Assembly (NCBI GenBank): GCA_947499565.1 | Contig: CANMOV010000001.1 | Location: 806,001 to 870,000 of the forward strand | Length of the DNA stretch: 64,000 nt | Direction of reading: 5' to 3' | From: an uncultured Croceitalea sp. | Lineage (GTDB): Bacteria; Bacteroidota; Bacteroidia; Flavobacteriales; Flavobacteriaceae | Shown: positions 1 to 6,413 of the stretch, piece after piece | Position numbering within the stretch: the first letter of the stretch is position 1 | How the letters are laid out: each line of letters begins with the position of its first letter | The notes under the pieces: model-generated | Seen by the model: only the letters and a program-made list of their open reading frames with translations | What the model was told of the DNA's origin: nothing | Database searches by the model: none | Position numbers and translations under genes: made by a program

Positions 1-133
1 TAGCACCTCCTGGATAACCATATAACAAATCTACCCCCTCAGCTAAAAGACAATGAATAATAGCTTCTGCACCAGATATTTTTACAGTCTTTTCCTTTTT
101 GATTTGGATTTTCTTTTCTTTTAGTGTTTCCAT
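1..133 (-). CDS. ilvB: Acetolactate synthase large subunit, N-terminal fragment (runs off window)
   Basis: Only the first 44 codons are present; the gene continues beyond base 1. The ATG is the reverse complement of 131-133. A lysine-rich start is followed by ISGAEAIIHCLLAEGV and then YGYPGGA, which is the beginning of the pyrimidine-binding domain of thiamine-diphosphate-dependent acetolactate synthase. The enzyme condenses pyruvate with pyruvate or 2-ketobutyrate in valine, leucine and isoleucine synthesis. It starts 13 bp after the ilvD stop on the same strand, so the two are almost certainly co-transcribed. Confusion with another ThDP enzyme is possible in so short a piece, but the ilvD neighbour settles it. 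Confidence 0.88.
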   Translation of the reverse strand, partial: METLKEKKIQIKKEKTVKISGAEAIIHCLLAEGVDLLYGYPGGA

Positions 134-146
134 CTTTCAAAATATT

Positions 147-1823
147 TTAGAATTCATCAGTAACGCAACCTTCAGCAGCTGATGATACCGAGCGAGCATA
201 CTTATATAACACTCCTTTTTTAAACTTTAACTGAGGTTCCACCCAAGCAGCTTTTCTTTTAGCAAGTTCCTCTTTAGTCACTTCTACATTAATAGCATTG
301 GTTTCAGCATCTATTACAATAGTATCGCCATCATTAACTAAACCAATTACGCCTCCTTCTTGAGCCTCGGGAGAAATATGCCCTACTACAAAACCATGCG
401 TTCCTCCAGAAAAACGGCCGTCCGTAATAAGTGCAACATCTTTACCAAGACCTGCCCCCATAATAGCTGCAGTTGGTTTAAGCATTTCTGGCATTCCAGG
501 TCCGCCCTTAGGACCCTCATAGCGTATAACTACAACATCACCTTTTTTAACCTTCCCAGTTCTTATTCCGTCATTAGCGTCATACTCACTATTAAATACT
601 TTTGCAGTACCCTTAAACACAAGCCCTTCCTTACCTGTAATTTTTGCAACAGATCCGTTCTCTGCTAGGTTTCCATATAACATGCGTAAATGTCCTGTTG
701 CTTTAATTGGATTCTCTAAAGGTCTAATCACATCTTGCCCTTCTTCCAAATCAGGAACATTTTCCAAGTTCTCTGCTAATGTTTTACCGGTAACAGTTAA
801 GCAATCGCCATGCAATAAACCGTTCTTTAATAAGTATTTTAATACCGCTGGTATTCCTCCAACACGGTGTACATCTTCCATTAAATATTTTCCACTTGGT
901 TTTAAATCCGCAATAAATGGAGTAGTATCACTTATGTGTTGAAAATCTTGAAGCGTGAATTCTATCTCAGCAGTTCGAGCAATAGCTAAAAAGTGAAGTA
1001 CTGCATTTGTTGAGCCACCCATAATAGTGACTAATCGAATGGCATTTTCTAAAGATTTCCGAGTAACAATATCCAAAGGCTTAATATCATTTTCTATAAG
1101 ATATCGCATCTGTTTTCCAGCAGCCAAACATTCTACCTCTTTGTTATCACTAATTGCGGGATTCGAAGAATTATATGGTAAGGACATTCCAAGAGCTTCA
1201 ATTGCAGAAGCCATAGTATTAGCGGTATACATTCCTCCACATGCTCCTGCACCTGGAATTGATTTTTTAATAATATTTTTAAACTCTTTCTCCTCCATTG
1301 TTCCCGCCACTTTTTCACCCCAAGCCTCAAAAGCAGAAACAATGTCTAATTTCTTATCATTATGGCAACCAGAAGCAATAGTTCCTCCATAAACTAAAAT
1401 AGCTGGGCGGTTAAGTCTTAGCATAGCCATTAAGGCACCCGGCATGTTCTTATCACATCCGACTACCGTTACCAGAGCATCATAAGACATCCCTTGTACT
1501 ACAGTTTCCATTGAATCTGCTATGACATCACGAGATGGTAGCGAAAAACGCATTCCCGGGGTACCCATAGAAATGCCATCACTTACACCAATTGTATTGA
1601 ATATAAGGCCAACAGTTTCTTTAGAGTTTACTCCCTCTTTAACCAATTTAGCAAGGTCATTCAAATGCATATTACATGGATTTCCTTCATAACCAGTACT
1701 AGCGATACCAACTAATGGTTTTTCAAAATCCTCATCCTTAAAACCAATCGCGTAAAGCATTGCTTGGGCTGCAGGTTGTGTAGGGTCCTGTGTTACGTTT
1801 TTGCTATATTTATTTAATTCCAT
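147..1823 (-). CDS. ilvD: Dihydroxy-acid dehydratase
   Basis: Dehydrates 2,3-dihydroxy-isovalerate and -methylvalerate to the 2-keto acids of valine and isoleucine, using an iron-sulfur cluster in the cytoplasm. The 558-residue length is normal for the family. The three cluster cysteines are at expected places: C50 (GNPCNMH), C123 (GCDKNMPG) and C195 (GACGGMYTA). The C-terminal half has the usual GGPGMPEM and GRFSGG segments. It is the first structural gene of a minus-strand ilv operon continuing into ilvB. A roughly 190-nt leader separates it from an upstream terminator hairpin, consistent with control by attenuation. Confidence 0.97.
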
Positions 1824-2017
1824 TAAAAGTTTCTTTCAAAATGTTTAAAAGCGTTGAAAATACTTTACTAACCAAAAATAATTGTTTCAAATACCGTAAT
1901 ATTTTAACAGTTCTGAATGTGCTAAATTCATTTAAAAAATTATATGCTTAAACACTTGACTAACAATATTTTAAATCAAAATAAAATACCACATTCACTT
2001 ATCTTAAATACATGCAT

Positions 2018-2051
2018 AAAAAAAGCCTGTATCGGTTAGATACAGGCTTTT
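2018..2051 (-). terminator. Intrinsic terminator in the ilv leader (attenuator hairpin)
   Basis: Read on the minus strand, AAAAGCCTGTATC pairs perfectly over 13 bp with GATACAGGCTTTT around a TAACC loop and is followed at once by a run of T (2024-2018). There is no gene end upstream on this strand, so it is not an ordinary 3' terminator. It sits about 195 nt before the ilvD start and 20 nt after the stop codon of an Ile-rich leader ORF, the position of a transcription attenuator. Because the arms are A-rich/T-rich it could in principle also stop plus-strand transcripts. Confidence 0.85.
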
Positions 2052-2073
2052 CTATTACAACAAAGTCCGTATC
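2039..2073 (-). promoter_or_regulatory. Predicted antiterminator of the ilv attenuator
   Basis: On the minus strand the segment 2073-2062 reads GATACGGACTTT, a near copy of the terminator 3' arm GATACAGGCTTTT. It can therefore pair with the terminator 5' arm (2051-2039): GATAC with GTATC, GG with CC, and CTTT with AAAG, with two single-base bulges and a 10-nt loop. Formation of this hairpin would exclude the terminator. The leader ORF stop codon (2074-2072) overlaps the first bases of this segment, so a ribosome finishing the leader would cover it, and one stalled on the Ile codons would leave it free. Confidence 0.7.
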
Positions 2074-2128
2074 ATTCCATTTCTGGAATAATAATGACAT
2101 TGATAATATTAGTTGTGTTTTTTACCAC
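2072..2128 (-). CDS. Leader peptide of the ilv operon (18 codons, Ile/Val-rich)
   Basis: A minus-strand ORF opens after an in-frame TGA with GTG and encodes MVKNTTNIINVIIIPEME. It holds five isoleucines (two, then three in a row), two valine codons counting the GTG-adjacent GTA, and two threonines, in a layout like the VVVIIIPP stretch of the enterobacterial ilvG leader. Codons 15-18 lie in a small hairpin with a GAAA loop (2090-2075). The stop overlaps the antiterminator segment. GTG is the only canonical start in this frame, and a promoter-like box ends 4 nt before it, so translation may be leaderless. The role is inferred from composition and RNA architecture, not from homology. Confidence 0.7.
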   Translation of the reverse strand: MVKNTTNIINVIIIPEME

Positions 2129-2132
2129 AGGT

Positions 2133-2163
2133 CAAGATTACATAAAATATTCTTTAAATCCAA
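2133..2163 (-). promoter_or_regulatory. Candidate promoter of the ilv leader
   Basis: On the minus strand TTG (2163-2161), a 20-nt spacer and TAATCTTG (2140-2133) match the Bacteroidota housekeeping promoter pattern TTG-N19-21-TAnnTTTG with one mismatch in the -7 box. Transcription would begin next to the GTG of the leader peptide. Confidence 0.5.
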
Positions 2164-2178
2164 TCAACTTCATATTAA

Positions 2179-2186
2179 TATATTTG
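2179..2186 (+). promoter_or_regulatory. Candidate -7 box of the nitroreductase gene
   Basis: TATATTTG is an exact match to the Bacteroidota -7 consensus TAnnTTTG. It ends five bases before the chosen ATG at 2192, so a transcript from it would be nearly or fully leaderless. No convincing TTG -33 box is seen at the right distance. Confidence 0.4.
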
Positions 2187-2191
2187 TCTCT

Positions 2192-2920
2192 ATGGAAAAA
2201 ACTGTTACAGAGGCTATTAATTACAGACGTTCTGTTCGCATCTTTAAAGAGCATATAGAATTAGATACCGAAAAAGTAAAGGATTGCATTAAAAATGCAA
2301 CATTAGCAGCAACTAGTAGTAATCTTCAACTTTGGGAGTTTTATCATATTACGGACAAGGCAATACTAAATAAAATGACCAAGGCATGTTTAGGTCAGAA
2401 TGCTGCTAAATATTCCAAACAGCTGCTTGTTGTCGTTGCCAGAAAGGACTTATGGTCTAAGCGAGCTAAAGCAAATGCTGCATATTTAAAAAGCACCTTA
2501 AACGGTAAACCAAAAACCGAATACACCAAACGAGAAAAGTTTGCATTGTCATATTATGAAAAACTAATTCCTACTGTTTATACTGAATTTTTGGGAATAC
2601 TTGGCTGGCTTAAGTATTTGGTTTTTCAAGTCGTTGGGCTTTTTAAACCAATTTATCGGCAAACTCGAAATTCTGATATGCGCATAGTGGCTCATAAAAG
2701 TGCTGGGTTAGCAGCTCAAAATTTCATGATTAGCATGGCCGCTATTGGCTATGACACTTGTCCTATGGAAGGCAGTGATACGCTAAGAATCAAAAAAATA
2801 TTGAAGCTTTCTAGGGGTGCTGAAATTAATATGGTAATAGGCTGCGGAATTCGCGATGAAAAAGGAATTTACGGTGAACGTTTTCGTATACCTTTCAAAG
2901 ACGTTTATTTTAAGGTTTAA
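2192..2920 (+). CDS. Nitroreductase family FMN-dependent oxidoreductase
   Basis: A 242-residue cytoplasmic nitroreductase-fold protein. The N-terminus (TVTEAINYRRSVRIFKEH) carries the family signature of paired arginines and a serine that contact FMN phosphate, and NATLAATSSNLQLWEF is the usual flavin-side segment. The reading frame is open for another 60 codons upstream, but that part crosses the ilv attenuator and is not protein-like, so the ATG at 2192 is taken. Substrate is unknown. Its stop lies 11 bp inside the end of the convergent pxpC gene, with no terminator between them. Confidence 0.85.
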   Translation: MEKTVTEAINYRRSVRIFKEHIELDTEKVKDCIKNATLAATSSNLQLWEFYHITDKAILNKMTKACLGQNAAKYSKQLLVVVARKDLWSKRAKANAAYLKSTLNGKPKTEYTKREKFALSYYEKLIPTVYTEFLGILGWLKYLVFQVVGLFKPIYRQTRNSDMRIVAHKSAGLAAQNFMISMAAIGYDTCPMEGSDTLRIKKILKLSRGAEINMVIGCGIRDEKGIYGERFRIPFKDVYFKV

Positions 2921-3755
2921 ACATTTTAAATTTAAGTTTATCTGTAGATTTTTTTTGCGCCAAAATACAAATTGCTTCCTCGCTTAGCTGCAAAATCCTT
3001 GGATACCCTCCAGTTGTTTGCCCATCTTTCATTAGAATAATTATCTTTCCGGAAGGAGTTAATTGTACTGTGCCTGGTTGCGTTGCTGAAGTTAAAATCG
3101 TTTTCGAATGACCAGTTATCGTTTCGTTCAATTGATATGCCATTCTATTGTTGTCTTTAGAAACAGAGAACTCTTTTAAAAAGAGATCCTCTAATTGCTT
3201 TTTGCCAAGCATTTTATATTCTGGACCTTGGTACACTTCTAGTAAATTGATGTCTAAATAAGTGTCCATCTGAAGCTCTGAAATTTTTGGTGCAAAAGAG
3301 CCGCATTCGTTAAATTCAATTTCTTGTAATTCCGAAATACATTTAGTTGCTGTTAGTGGATAGTAATGTGATTGACTCCCTAAAACTGGAGTCGTTTTAA
3401 ATCCATCTTTTACTGCCAAATAACTTCTAAAACCTTTTTCTAATCTTCCGTAAGATAAAATATCTCCTTTTAAGGCCTTATAAACTTTGTAGTTGTCTAT
3501 TGGCTTATTATTCAAGGTTGGGGATAACCAAGCTCCTCCAAGAGCTATATACGTATCATTTTCAAATAATAAAGTGGGACCAGTCATTGTAATTTCCAGA
3601 ACAGCAGCGTTTAAATTGTTTTCAAGCAATCTATTTGCTCTTGATACAGAAACCATATCCATTGCACCAGAAACTGGAACTCCTTTATCACGATATCCAT
3701 ACCGACCATTGTCCTGTATAGTTGTAAAAAAACCAGATTTAAGTACTTTAAGCAT
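2910..3755 (-). CDS. pxpC: 5-oxoprolinase subunit C (biotin-dependent carboxyltransferase-like)
   Basis: A 281-residue protein of the KipA/AHS2 (cyclophilin-like) family. It opens with LKSGFFTTIQDNGRYGYRDKGVPVSGAMD, of which the QDNGRYG..G.PVSGAMD pattern is the family hallmark; the later TSATQPGTVQLTPSGKIIILM and GGYPRI segments also fit. With PxpA and PxpB it forms the ATP-dependent enzyme that opens 5-oxoproline (pyroglutamate) to glutamate. The ATG overlaps the end of pxpB by 8 bp, so translation is probably coupled. It is the last gene of the operon and overlaps the convergent nitroreductase end. Confidence 0.93.
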   Translation of the reverse strand: MLKVLKSGFFTTIQDNGRYGYRDKGVPVSGAMDMVSVSRANRLLENNLNAAVLEITMTGPTLLFENDTYIALGGAWLSPTLNNKPIDNYKVYKALKGDILSYGRLEKGFRSYLAVKDGFKTTPVLGSQSHYYPLTATKCISELQEIEFNECGSFAPKISELQMDTYLDINLLEVYQGPEYKMLGKKQLEDLFLKEFSVSKDNNRMAYQLNETITGHSKTILTSATQPGTVQLTPSGKIIILMKDGQTTGGYPRILQLSEEAICILAQKKSTDKLKFKMFKP

Positions 3756-4479
3756 TTAAGGAAATTTTTTCTGGTTTATAAATCCCTACTTCTCCTTCTA
3801 TTTTATGGAGGTCATATTCCGCCCGTGAAATAGATTCGAATTTTATTTTATCGCCCACATTAACAAAACAAGGTTCTTTAGCATTCGAATTAAATATTGG
3901 GATAGGACAATTGCCTATGATATTCCAGCCGCCAGGAGATTCCTGTGGATAAATACCTGTTTGCTTTCCTGCTAGACCCACAGCCCCTTTAGTAACTTTT
4001 AACCTAGGCACGTCTTTTCTTTTAGTTTCTATTTTTCCTGGCAAACCTCCTAAATACATAAAACCTGGGAGAAAGCCAATGCCGTAAACCGTATAGTTAT
4101 GGGAAGAATGAATTTTTATTAGTTCCTCGGGGGTCATATTAAGATTGGAAGCAACTTCTCTTATATCAATTCCAAACTCAACATCGTAACATACAGGAAT
4201 CTTCCAAAGAACCTTTTCCGTTTTAATTAAAGTTCTGTTTTTCTCATAAAGACTTGGGATTTTTTTTTCTAACTTTTCAAGATTAAAATTGGTAGTATTA
4301 GAGATAATAGCAATTGAATTGTATGCTGGTACAAACTCGAAATTAGCATCTAATTCTGATTCTAATAGAGCTTTAAACCTAATGATATCCTCTAAAATAG
4401 CCTCCTCAACTTTATTGGGCCACTCAATAAGAATAGCTTTCTCGCCAAAAGTCTTTAATGTAATGGGGTAACTTTTCAC
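3748..4479 (-). CDS. pxpB: 5-oxoprolinase subunit B (KipI family)
   Basis: A 243-residue protein of the KipI/AHS1 family. Typical blocks are VPAYNSIAII near residue 60, the IPVCYDVEFGIDI segment, and GIGFLPGFMYLGGLP with RLKVTKGAVGLAGKQTGIYP and SPGGWNIIG downstream. It partners PxpC in ATP-dependent 5-oxoproline cleavage. The start is GTG, and the sequence GTGA overlaps the pxpA stop by 4 bp, a sign of coupled translation. In Bacillus the homologue KipI was first described as a kinase inhibitor, but the pxpA and pxpC neighbours argue for the metabolic role. Confidence 0.93.
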   Translation of the reverse strand: MKSYPITLKTFGEKAILIEWPNKVEEAILEDIIRFKALLESELDANFEFVPAYNSIAIISNTTNFNLEKLEKKIPSLYEKNRTLIKTEKVLWKIPVCYDVEFGIDIREVASNLNMTPEELIKIHSSHNYTVYGIGFLPGFMYLGGLPGKIETKRKDVPRLKVTKGAVGLAGKQTGIYPQESPGGWNIIGNCPIPIFNSNAKEPCFVNVGDKIKFESISRAEYDLHKIEGEVGIYKPEKISLNA

Positions 4480-5219
4480 TTGCTAATTTGAATTCTTCTT
4501 TTTGGTAATTCATTTGAAAGATACGTTAATATTTCAATAGCATTTGGAGTATCACCATGAATACAAAAAGTATCTGCTTTTATTTTCTTTATACTCCCAG
4601 ATATTGTTTTAACAGCGTTGTCTTCAACTATCCGAAGAACATGCTCAAATACTTTTTTCTCATCTAGAATTAACGAATCTTTTTCTTTTCTGGAAACCAA
4701 GGTCAAATCGTCATTGTAATTCCTATCACAAAAGACTTCATACCTTATAGCAAAACCTCTTTCTTTAGCTATTTTAGCAACTACAGACTTATATGGTACA
4801 TAAAGTATTGCCTTTTTCTTAAATTCATGTATTGCTTCCAAAAAAGTAATTGCAACTTTATTATTCTTAGCTATCTCATTATATAATGCTCCGTGCGGTT
4901 TAATATGATTCATAGTAACACCTGCTGAAACTATTACTTTTAAAAAGGTATTAACCTGATGCTTTAGCGTTTCTTTAAGCTCTTTCTCCGTAATATCAAG
5001 TGCAACTCTTCCAAAATTATCTTTATCAGGATAACTAGGGTGAGCGCCTACTTTAACCTTATGCTTATTAGCTAATAATCCTATTTCACGAATAGTGTCC
5101 TCATCACCTGCATGTCCACCGCACGCAATATTACAAGAAGAAATAAACGGAAACAGCTCAGGTTCGTTCCCAATACCTTCACCAACATCACAATTAATAT
5201 CAATATTCTTACCGTTCAT
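4476..5219 (-). CDS. pxpA: 5-oxoprolinase subunit A (LamB/YcsF family)
   Basis: A 247-residue protein with the LamB/YcsF signature: DINCDVGEGIGNEPEL at the start, SSCNIACGGHAGDEDTI around residue 30, and VGAHPSYPDKDNFGR at about 56-70. It is the third component of the bacterial 5-oxoprolinase complex. The ATG follows directly on the stop of the transporter gene with no spacer. The order transporter-pxpA-pxpB-pxpC resembles the ycsF-ycsG-kipI-kipA cluster of Bacillus subtilis, where YcsG is also NRAMP-like. Confidence 0.94.
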   Translation of the reverse strand: MNGKNIDINCDVGEGIGNEPELFPFISSCNIACGGHAGDEDTIREIGLLANKHKVKVGAHPSYPDKDNFGRVALDITEKELKETLKHQVNTFLKVIVSAGVTMNHIKPHGALYNEIAKNNKVAITFLEAIHEFKKKAILYVPYKSVVAKIAKERGFAIRYEVFCDRNYNDDLTLVSRKEKDSLILDEKKVFEHVLRIVEDNAVKTISGSIKKIKADTFCIHGDTPNAIEILTYLSNELPKRRIQISK

Positions 5220-6413
5220 TTAAAATATTCCAAAGACTTTAAAAATGCTTTTTGCGCCAAGAAGAATGGATAGCCCAATAATTAAAAATCCAATTATATT
5301 TTGGAACAAGGTATTCTTATATTTTCCCATCACATTTTTCTTATTCACTATCCATACTAACAGAATTGCTATAACTGGTAATAACATTCCATTTGCAACC
5401 TGAGCAAATTTTATGATCTCTATAGGTTTAATCTCAAAGGATAGTGATAAAACTCCTAAAAACAATATACTTATCCATACCAAACGAAACTTCCAATCTT
5501 TTAGACCAACACTCCATCCAAAACAACTGTTTGCAACATAAGCAGCAGCTAAAGGAGCAGTTATTGAAGATGTAATGCCAGCTGCAAAAAGCCCTATTCC
5601 CATAAAATATTTTGCATTACCACCAAACAACGGCTCCAATCCTTTGGCAAGGTCTAAAGCTCCTGTTACTTCATTAATAGGAATAGCCGTAGCAGCAATT
5701 ATAATCGCCATAGAAACAATACCACCAATACCAATAGAAATTACAGTATCTCTTCTGGCATCTTTTAAATCACTTTTTAATTTCCATTTCTCATTTACAA
5801 GTGAAGCATGCAAAAAAAGGTTATACGGAACGATCGTGGTGCCGACCAATGCTATAATTGTTAACAGACTCTCTCTTGGAAAAGAAGGAACTAATAGCCC
5901 TTTTACAACTGAGAAAATTGCTGGCTTGGTTAGTATAGCTGTTATGATAAATGAAATACTCATTAAAAAAATTAAGCCTACAAAAACTTTTTCCAGCATT
6001 TTATAACTCCCCATCCATAATAAGATAAAAGCCAAAAAACCAATAATAAAAGGATAGTAATTTAAGAAGTCCTCGCCAAAAAGGGCTTGCATTCCTAATG
6101 TTGCACCACCAATATTACCAGCTTCATAAGCCGCATTACCAATTAAAATGGCCCCTAAAATTATTCCCGCGACTATAAACCTAATCCATTTAGATTCTAA
6201 TTGTTCTTTAATTACATTAGCTAAGCCCCTTCGGGTTATAATACCCAAACGAGCCGCCATCTCTTGTAAAACCATTGTAGCTAAAATCGACAATAGCATT
6301 GCCCATAGCAAGGCATAACCAAAACCTACTCCGGCTAAGGTACAGGCAGTTATAGTCCCAGGACCAATAAAAGCTGCTGCGACTAAAACACCAGGTCCAA
6401 TTTTTTTAAACAT
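5220..6413 (-). CDS. NRAMP-family transporter linked to 5-oxoprolinase
   Basis: A 397-residue inner-membrane protein with about eleven hydrophobic helices and an NRAMP fold. The ATG at 6413 gives the usual short N-terminus (MFKKIGPGVLVAAAFIGPGT); the frame could extend 11 codons to a TTG at 6446, which is less likely. The metal site of true Mn/Fe transporters is not conserved: the TM1 DPGN motif is G17-P-G-T20 and the TM6 MPHN motif is V195-P-Y-N198. Being first in the pxp operon, it probably brings in 5-oxoproline or a related compound or ion needed for it; substrate is inferred from context only. Confidence 0.85.
   Translation of the reverse strand: MFKKIGPGVLVAAAFIGPGTITACTLAGVGFGYALLWAMLLSILATMVLQEMAARLGIITRRGLANVIKEQLESKWIRFIVAGIILGAILIGNAAYEAGNIGGATLGMQALFGEDFLNYYPFIIGFLAFILLWMGSYKMLEKVFVGLIFLMSISFIITAILTKPAIFSVVKGLLVPSFPRESLLTIIALVGTTIVPYNLFLHASLVNEKWKLKSDLKDARRDTVISIGIGGIVSMAIIIAATAIPINEVTGALDLAKGLEPLFGGNAKYFMGIGLFAAGITSSITAPLAAAYVANSCFGWSVGLKDWKFRLVWISILFLGVLSLSFEIKPIEIIKFAQVANGMLLPVIAILLVWIVNKKNVMGKYKNTLFQNIIGFLIIGLSILLGAKSIFKVFGIF

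Follow-up and report, generated by a model that had tools for sequence, protein, structure and literature searches.

Probable ribosome-mediated transcription attenuation upstream of ilvD in a member of the Flavobacteriaceae, with recurrent leaders and a putative bypass promoter

The attenuators of the enterobacterial ilv, thr, his and trp operons, which the site described here resembles, combine runs of regulatory codons with mutually exclusive pairings between RNA segments (1:2, 2:3 and 3:4). Their leaders are preceded by a 5' UTR with a Shine-Dalgarno site, and Shine-Dalgarno initiation is rarely used in Bacteroidota. The closest mechanism found in the literature is that of the Corynebacterium glutamicum ilvBNC operon, where the three hairpins are described as an anti-antiterminator, an antiterminator and a terminator (PMC11857589). 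For Flavobacterium psychrophilum, in which Shine-Dalgarno initiation is also described as rarely used, 'strong clues' have been reported that amino-acid operons are preceded by leader-peptide attenuators, with mention of pheA and hisG 5' elements in other genera; section 19 of that article gives no leader sequences or alternative pairings, and 'ilv' is absent from its main text (PMC9723704). Short ORFs reminiscent of attenuation leader peptides have been noted in Bacteroides (PMC7366714), and Bacteroidetes leader genes near start codons have been counted (PMC4833913); 'ilv' occurs in neither. A first-pass annotation of the DNA analyzed here had called such an attenuator little described in Flavobacteriaceae, which is fair, as the main text of PMC9723704 gives clues without detail. 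No paper on a flavobacterial ilvD attenuator was found in a literature search that covered few subscription papers. A comparative paper by Lopatovskaya and colleagues from 2010, cited in PMC4833913, may list Bacteroidota cases.

The DNA under analysis, called the window throughout, is a stretch of 64,000 nucleotides, and the site lies on its minus strand upstream of ilvD (1823-147; dihydroxy-acid dehydratase, NCBIfam TIGR00110 at 761.4 bits and NF002068 at 832 bits). We read the site as a ribosome-mediated ilv attenuator that senses charged tRNA-Ile and probably charged tRNA-Val and is probably bypassed by a second promoter, P2, and give this reading a probability of about 0.92. In the direction of transcription, the site begins with a putative distal promoter, P1 (2163-2133), which consists of TTG at 2163-2161, a gap of 20 nt and the -7-like box TAATCTTG at 2140-2133, with one mismatch to TAnnTTTG on direct reading of the sequence. 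Four nucleotides separate this box from the GTG (2128-2126) of the leader ORF MVKNTTNIINVIIIPEME (2128-2072), which has 18 codons, five of them Ile and two Val after the start, and ends with TGA at 2074-2072. The protector hairpin 1:2 (2093-2070) has arms at 2093-2085, which holds Ile codons, and at 2078-2070. Segment 2, the 5' arm of the antiterminator (GATACGGACTTT, 2073-2062), is overlapped by the leader TGA and is a near copy of the 3' arm of the terminator. The intrinsic terminator 3:4 (2051-2018) is composed of AAAAGCCTGTATC (2051-2039), the loop TAACC, GATACAGGCTTTT (2033-2021) and T's to 2018; its stem is a perfect 13 bp, and it ends about 195 nt before ilvD. The promoter-like boxes, the 18-codon GTG leader, the overlapping stop and the 13-bp terminator had been proposed by the first-pass annotation, and direct reading confirms them. 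A scan of both strands of the 64-kb window for short ORFs that carry a residue cluster and are followed by a terminator of at most -10 kcal/mol, run with ten sets of residues (His, Trp, Phe, Ile/Leu/Val, Thr, Pro, Cys, Met, Tyr and Arg), found no site other than the one at ilvD.

A 116-nt stretch of the site folds to -39.9 kcal/mol (z = -7.9), as good as none of 200 shuffles. The first-pass annotation was wrong in finding no partner for the antiterminator strand in a ribosome-free RNA: 2093-2085 pairs with 2078-2070 in a helix of 9 bp that extends into the first bases of segment 2, and all three classic pairings exist at the site. The 3:4 duplex is perfect (-17.3 kcal/mol), and the 2:3 duplex pairs 11 of 12 bases with one mismatch (-9.3 kcal/mol). 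Folding the RNA as it stands before segment 4 is made gives helix 1:2 when nothing is masked (-21.5 kcal/mol) and helix 2:3 when segment 1 is masked (-10.0 kcal/mol), and masking segment 2 leaves the terminator to form alone (-21.3 kcal/mol). If segment 1 is masked but segment 4 is present, the terminator still wins at equilibrium (-21.3 kcal/mol). Antitermination must therefore be kinetic, with 2:3 forming first, because the terminator is the more stable structure once segment 4 exists.

From this arrangement we infer how translation, stalling and termination would follow one another. Transcription from P1 would begin at or beside the GTG, and a ribosome could for that reason start on the first codon of the transcript. 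With plentiful Ile and Val, the ribosome would reach the UGA within segment 2 and mask that segment, the 3:4 terminator would form, and transcription would stop about 195 nt before ilvD. A ribosome stalled on the Ile codons of segment 1 would prevent the 1:2 hairpin; segment 2 could then pair with segment 3 ahead of the synthesis of segment 4, and the polymerase would read into ilvD-ilvB-x-ilvN-ilvC-ilvA. Without a ribosome, 1:2 would form and termination would be the default.

The operon order ilvD-ilvB-x-ilvN-ilvC-ilvA, followed by an aldehyde dehydrogenase-like gene, is read from a locus of the same genome that contains this site (L111), and no leu genes are among the operon genes read there. 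The gene x, between ilvB and ilvN, encodes 193 aa (L111:11805-12383, minus strand) and has no NCBIfam match at E <= 1e-10; the start of its protein resembles, in our impression, a SAM-dependent methyltransferase. A leader rich in Ile and Val and poor in Leu fits an operon without leu genes, and the 41 leaders of the class to which the window belongs (class B, defined below) contain 26.0% Ile, 15.7% Val and 6.8% Leu. The first-pass annotation had taken Ile as the regulatory residue, which is borne out for Ile itself and not for Ile alone, as Val codons are present too. It had also suggested looking for conserved Ile/Val codons in relatives, and at positions 5 to 9 before the stop these two residues reach 66-90% across the 41 class-B leaders. 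Read in frame, the leaders have 43.5% Ile plus Val, against 9.1% and 4.0% off frame; the leaders were chosen with an Ile/Leu/Val detector, so that composition counts on its detections, this one included, are inflated.

Conservation was surveyed in upstream regions gathered from 80 named ilvD loci, 29 loci from the genomes of 59 relatives and 129 family-sample upstream regions. The family sample has almost one genome per genus (199 genomes, 164 with a match); the best 152 of the 164 matches are listed, and 151 of these have usable upstream sequence. Removal of one empty region and of duplicates leaves a survey set of 234 distinct upstream regions. L097, with no upstream sequence, is left out, and the dropped duplicates are L091 (identical to L017), L126 (L008, with an attenuator) and L174 and L182 (L018 and L019, both without). 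The detector looks for a terminator together with a short ORF that has at least five Ile/Leu/Val codons making up 33% or more, or six and 40% in its strict form. An Ile/Val/Leu-rich leader with a terminator is found in 109 of the 234 distinct regions (98 strict), compared with 13 on the opposite strand (6 strict) and 2, 2 and 0 in three shuffles (1, 2 and 0 strict); with five other residue sets the real sequence yields 0-30 detections, or 0-7 in the strict form. Five doubtful detections (L023, L080, L104, L106 and L134) were removed, and in L095 and L090 the leader start was set manually, after which 117 attenuators in 104 loci remain. Within the family sample (best 152 of 164 matches), an attenuator is present in 72 of 148 distinct regions, or 73 of 151 counting three duplicates. 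A looser look at the 76 family negatives reveals a few probable misses (L117, L162 and perhaps L222), and most of the 76 lack any terminator.

Sorted by the 5' arm of the terminator, the curated attenuators comprise 64 of class A (CCUUCC type), 41 of class B (CCUGUAUC type) and 12 others, and the window carries a single attenuator of class B. Alignment A1 contains 29 of the 41 class-B attenuators, with L146, L211 and 10 of the 11 class-B attenuators from tandem loci left out. Covariation across aligned upstream regions, which had been suggested as a check, is seen in helices 1:2 and 3:4: 97.4% of their cells are paired, and 9 of 21 pairs are changed on both sides, compared with a shuffled mean of 2.9 and none of 500 shuffles as high. 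Helix 1:2 contributes two-sided changes in 5 of 9 pairs with 94.3% of cells paired and helix 3:4 in 4 of 12 pairs with 99.7% paired, and when the partner is shifted by one to three alignment columns, pairing in the two helices falls to 39-52%.

For helix 2:3, the same 29 loci have 92.8% of cells paired (shuffled mean 91.1, 0/500 as high) and 8 cells with a two-sided change (shuffled mean 3.3, 0/500 as high), and these cell counts and the score exceed all 500 shuffles; the two-sided changes fall in only 2 of 11 pairs, a number that 112 of 500 shuffles reach. Segment 3 is nearly invariant within class B, and the better evidence for 2:3 is therefore the comparison across loci. Over all 117 attenuators, each segment 2 pairs with its own segment 3 at a mean of -8.55 kcal/mol, against -6.33 (sd 0.20) for permuted partners (0/5000), and in 103 of the 117 a locus's own segment 2 is better than the mean of its own shuffles. 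The preference persists within class B (-10.96 versus -10.11 kcal/mol, 0/5000 permutations) and is small within class A (-7.20 versus -6.69 kcal/mol, 8/5000 permutations).

Two attenuators lie in series in 13 loci of the 234 regions (L010, L011, L032, L034, L101, L127, L129, L153, L157, L159, L178, L180 and L206). A class-A attenuator is distal and a class-B one proximal in 11 of the 13, and the other two pair an attenuator of the 'other' group with class A. Both segment 2 strands prefer their own segment 3 over the neighbor's in 10 of the 13 tandems, in L011 by only 0.2 kcal/mol on one side; the exceptions are L032, L101 and L180. Among the class-B leaders of the tandem loci, 1 of 11 has a -7-like box 3-6 nt before its start, which suggests that most second leaders would be reached only through read-through of the first terminator. 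These 13 loci allow the contribution of a second attenuator with the same specificity to be studied in natural variants.

The first-pass annotation had judged the leader to be probably leaderless, and the spacing between box and start codon supports this view. A box of the form TAnnnTT[GA] ends 3-6 nt before the leader start in 26 of the 30 single class-B loci, the window included, compared with 110 of 3812 ATG or GTG codons in the same regions (2.9%); the count of 26 allows another in-frame upstream start and is slightly more permissive than the single-codon control. Counting the assigned start codons alone gives 25 boxes, of which 24 lie at 4 or 5 nt, and the four single class-B loci without a box are L083, L146, L177 and L211. 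Class-A leaders start 4-12 nt after a TTTG-like motif in 42 of 64 cases and farther away in 8, and 14 are without the motif. The proposed GTG start is supported by the congener L095, which has ATG at the same position and at the same 4-nt distance from the box. On the evidence of this spacing, the leader probably starts at or next to the 5' end of the transcript. The consensus used for the -7 box is TAnnTTTG (PMC9723704). Leaderless transcripts account for only 5.5% of the mapped mRNAs of F. psychrophilum (PMC9723704), so this arrangement is not the default there.

A second putative promoter, P2, is marked by the -7 box TATTTTTG (1880-1873, minus strand), a match to TAnnTTTG between the terminator and ilvD. 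A TAnnTTTG ending 90-20 nt before ilvD, mostly near 50, is found in 27 of the 30 single class-B loci, and shuffling the last 150 nt yields one at the P2 position in 10.3% of cases (fraction 0.103). The box also occurs in 34 of the 76 family loci without a detected attenuator (best 152 of 164 matches), in 5 of 37 single class-A family loci (best 152 of 164 matches) and in 4 of 13 tandem loci, and it is kept in the congeners L094 and L096, both of which are without an attenuator. Upstream of P2 lies an array of three boxes (1997-1922, minus strand), TGAATGTGGTA at 1997-1987, TGTTAGTCA at 1965-1957 and ATGAATTTAG at 1931-1922, with the consensus boxes TTGAATATGATA, TGATAATCA and TTGRATTTA in aligned relatives. 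Of the 30 single class-B loci, 27 have box 1 (shuffled fraction 0.007). The start of box 2 follows box 1 at 31-32 nt in 13 of the 15 pairs found, and box 3 follows box 1 at 65 or 66 nt in all 19 pairs found. Elsewhere, box 1 occurs in 2 of 13 tandem loci and in 17 of the 76 family loci without an attenuator (best 152 of 164 matches), and it is absent from all 37 single class-A family loci (best 152 of 164 matches). The spacing is near three helical turns and suggests that protein binds on one face of the DNA, and the array is a putative set of protein-binding sites, possibly for an ilv regulator. Promoter activity and the binding protein are likewise what we infer from these patterns. With a conserved putative P2 downstream of the terminator, the attenuator should govern the transcripts of the distal promoter only; P2 transcripts would probably escape attenuation, perhaps under the control of an array-binding protein, and P2 may carry much of ilvD transcription. 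Attenuation of ilv transcription as first proposed is supported as a mechanism and should apply to part of the transcription rather than the whole, as P2 appears to bypass the terminator.

The good conservation of P2 (27/30) and its persistence in congeners without an attenuator are also what would be expected if 2018-2163 held a plain terminator with a fortuitous ORF, insulating ilvD from upstream transcription and leaving P2 as the sole functional promoter. This explanation is improbable, as the upstream gene is divergent (its ORF is on the plus strand) and no transcript needs to be ended at 2018-2163, the explanation leaves no place for the covariation in 1:2 or for the recurrent Ile/Val leader, and a -7-like box is conserved at a fixed distance from the leader start. 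Ribosome-mediated attenuation is instead supported by the recurrence of leader ORFs, the covariation of 1:2 and 3:4, antiterminator complementarity that tracks the locus and the Ile/Val operon downstream.

A leader that binds a metabolite or tRNA, of the riboswitch or T-box type, with an ORF that has no role, would account for the strong structure and for a weak resemblance to the Rfam Thr_leader family (RF00506), which is the best match in window positions 1-6000 at a permissive threshold and scores 38.2 bits against a gathering score of 55. We consider such a leader very unlikely: none of the Rfam families scores at or above its gathering threshold at this site (L111) or in L278, L095, L101 and L129, the eight Rfam matches that window positions 1-6000 give up to E = 5 include no T-box and none is found at the gathering score in L111, and the conserved feature is an ORF with many Ile/Val codons. 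Equally hard to credit is a trans-acting leader RNA ending near 2018, working as a small RNA or through its peptide, with attenuation secondary. The leaderless Sinorhizobium meliloti attenuator RNA and its peptide, both acting in trans (PMC7298713), are a precedent, but outside the Ile/Val block the peptide differs from locus to locus.

The proposed ribosome-mediated attenuation may not be the only case in this genome. A His-rich leader, MQKNNIHHHIVIHAQAR, with a terminator of -19.1 kcal/mol lies about 160-50 nt before hisG (position 1501 of L278) in the leader/terminator scan, and the hisG upstream region is a probable second attenuator of the genome, which suggests that attenuation is probably not confined to ilv. 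The genome's own leuA match (L279) has no terminator in the 900 nt upstream. This match scores 568.6 bits, below the family cut-off of 598.7, and its reading frame crosses one TGA and one TAA. A covariance model built from the 29 class-B attenuators gives the ilvD site 83.9 bits in its own genome; the next-best match there, at 34.5 bits, is on the opposite strand and overlaps the ilvD site, and the rest score 29 bits or less. Only the ilvD site is convincing, and a repeated element with other targets is therefore rejected at this model's similarity. Over 247 genomes of the class, the same model yields 66 matches at E <= 0.01, but besides G000 these score at most 46 bits, include several opposite-strand pairs and look like terminator resemblance, and no conclusion is drawn from them.

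Among six same-genus loci, an attenuator is present in L001, L095 and L083, the last with a short leader and no P1 box, and none is detected in L094 and L096. The sixth, L082 (genome G006), keeps the terminator and part of the hairpins with no leader ORF detected, and looks like an attenuator in decay. The congeners G001 and G005, with part of ilvD only, are outside the comparison. Loss in close relatives had been named in advance as an outcome that would speak against the attenuator, and it is seen in part, in L094 and L096 for the whole attenuator and in L082 for a detected leader ORF; given how widely attenuators recur elsewhere, turnover is a likelier explanation than chance. Mapping the presence or absence of the attenuator on an ilvD tree of 108 loci (FastTree) requires 25 changes, compared with a shuffled mean of 34.1 and 1 of 500 shuffles as low, and the tree's three AB tandem loci fall in three separate places. 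With 25 changes, no clean clade history of the attenuator is found on this tree, and an ancestral tandem is therefore not claimed.

A broader and rather doubtful proposal is that ilvD control in Flavobacteriaceae is modular, with one or two leaderless or near-leaderless Ile/Val attenuators in series (class A distal, class B proximal), whose pairing segments largely do not interfere and which have been gained or lost repeatedly, plus a separate bypass promoter with a three-box operator. If this were so, a leader start at the 5' end would make the coupling of ribosome and polymerase depend on 70S-type initiation, and the switch could then respond to the condition of leaderless translation in addition to the supply of Ile and Val.

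The site is a well-supported further case of a known mechanism, ribosome-mediated transcription attenuation, in a group where it has so far been little detailed, and its less ordinary features are the probable leaderless start, the tandem relatives and the putative bypass promoter. It provides a base-by-base attenuator model for Bacteroidota with a large comparative set, and makes testable both leader translation without a 5' UTR in Flavobacteriaceae and the shares of ilv expression that are attenuated or come from the downstream promoter. Unlike the enterobacterial leaders, the leader in the window would start at or near the 5' end. A leaderless RNA is described for S. meliloti trpL (PMC7298713). 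The Salmonella mgtCBR operon is likewise preceded by two successive leader ORFs, each with an attenuator, but there the two sense different signals, ATP and proline (PMC3641672); in the flavobacterial tandems both leaders are Ile/Val-rich. The C. glutamicum ilvBNC operon shares with the site a leader peptide containing Ile, Val and Leu and the three hairpins; its transcription starts one nucleotide from the leader start codon and it has several promoters (PMC11857589), comparable with the probable leaderless start and the two putative promoters of the site. It belongs to another phylum and has ilvB as its first gene (PMC11857589); on the flavobacterial side, unlike in C. glutamicum, the leader stop overlaps segment 2, some relatives carry attenuators in tandem, and a putative promoter lies between the attenuator and the first gene.
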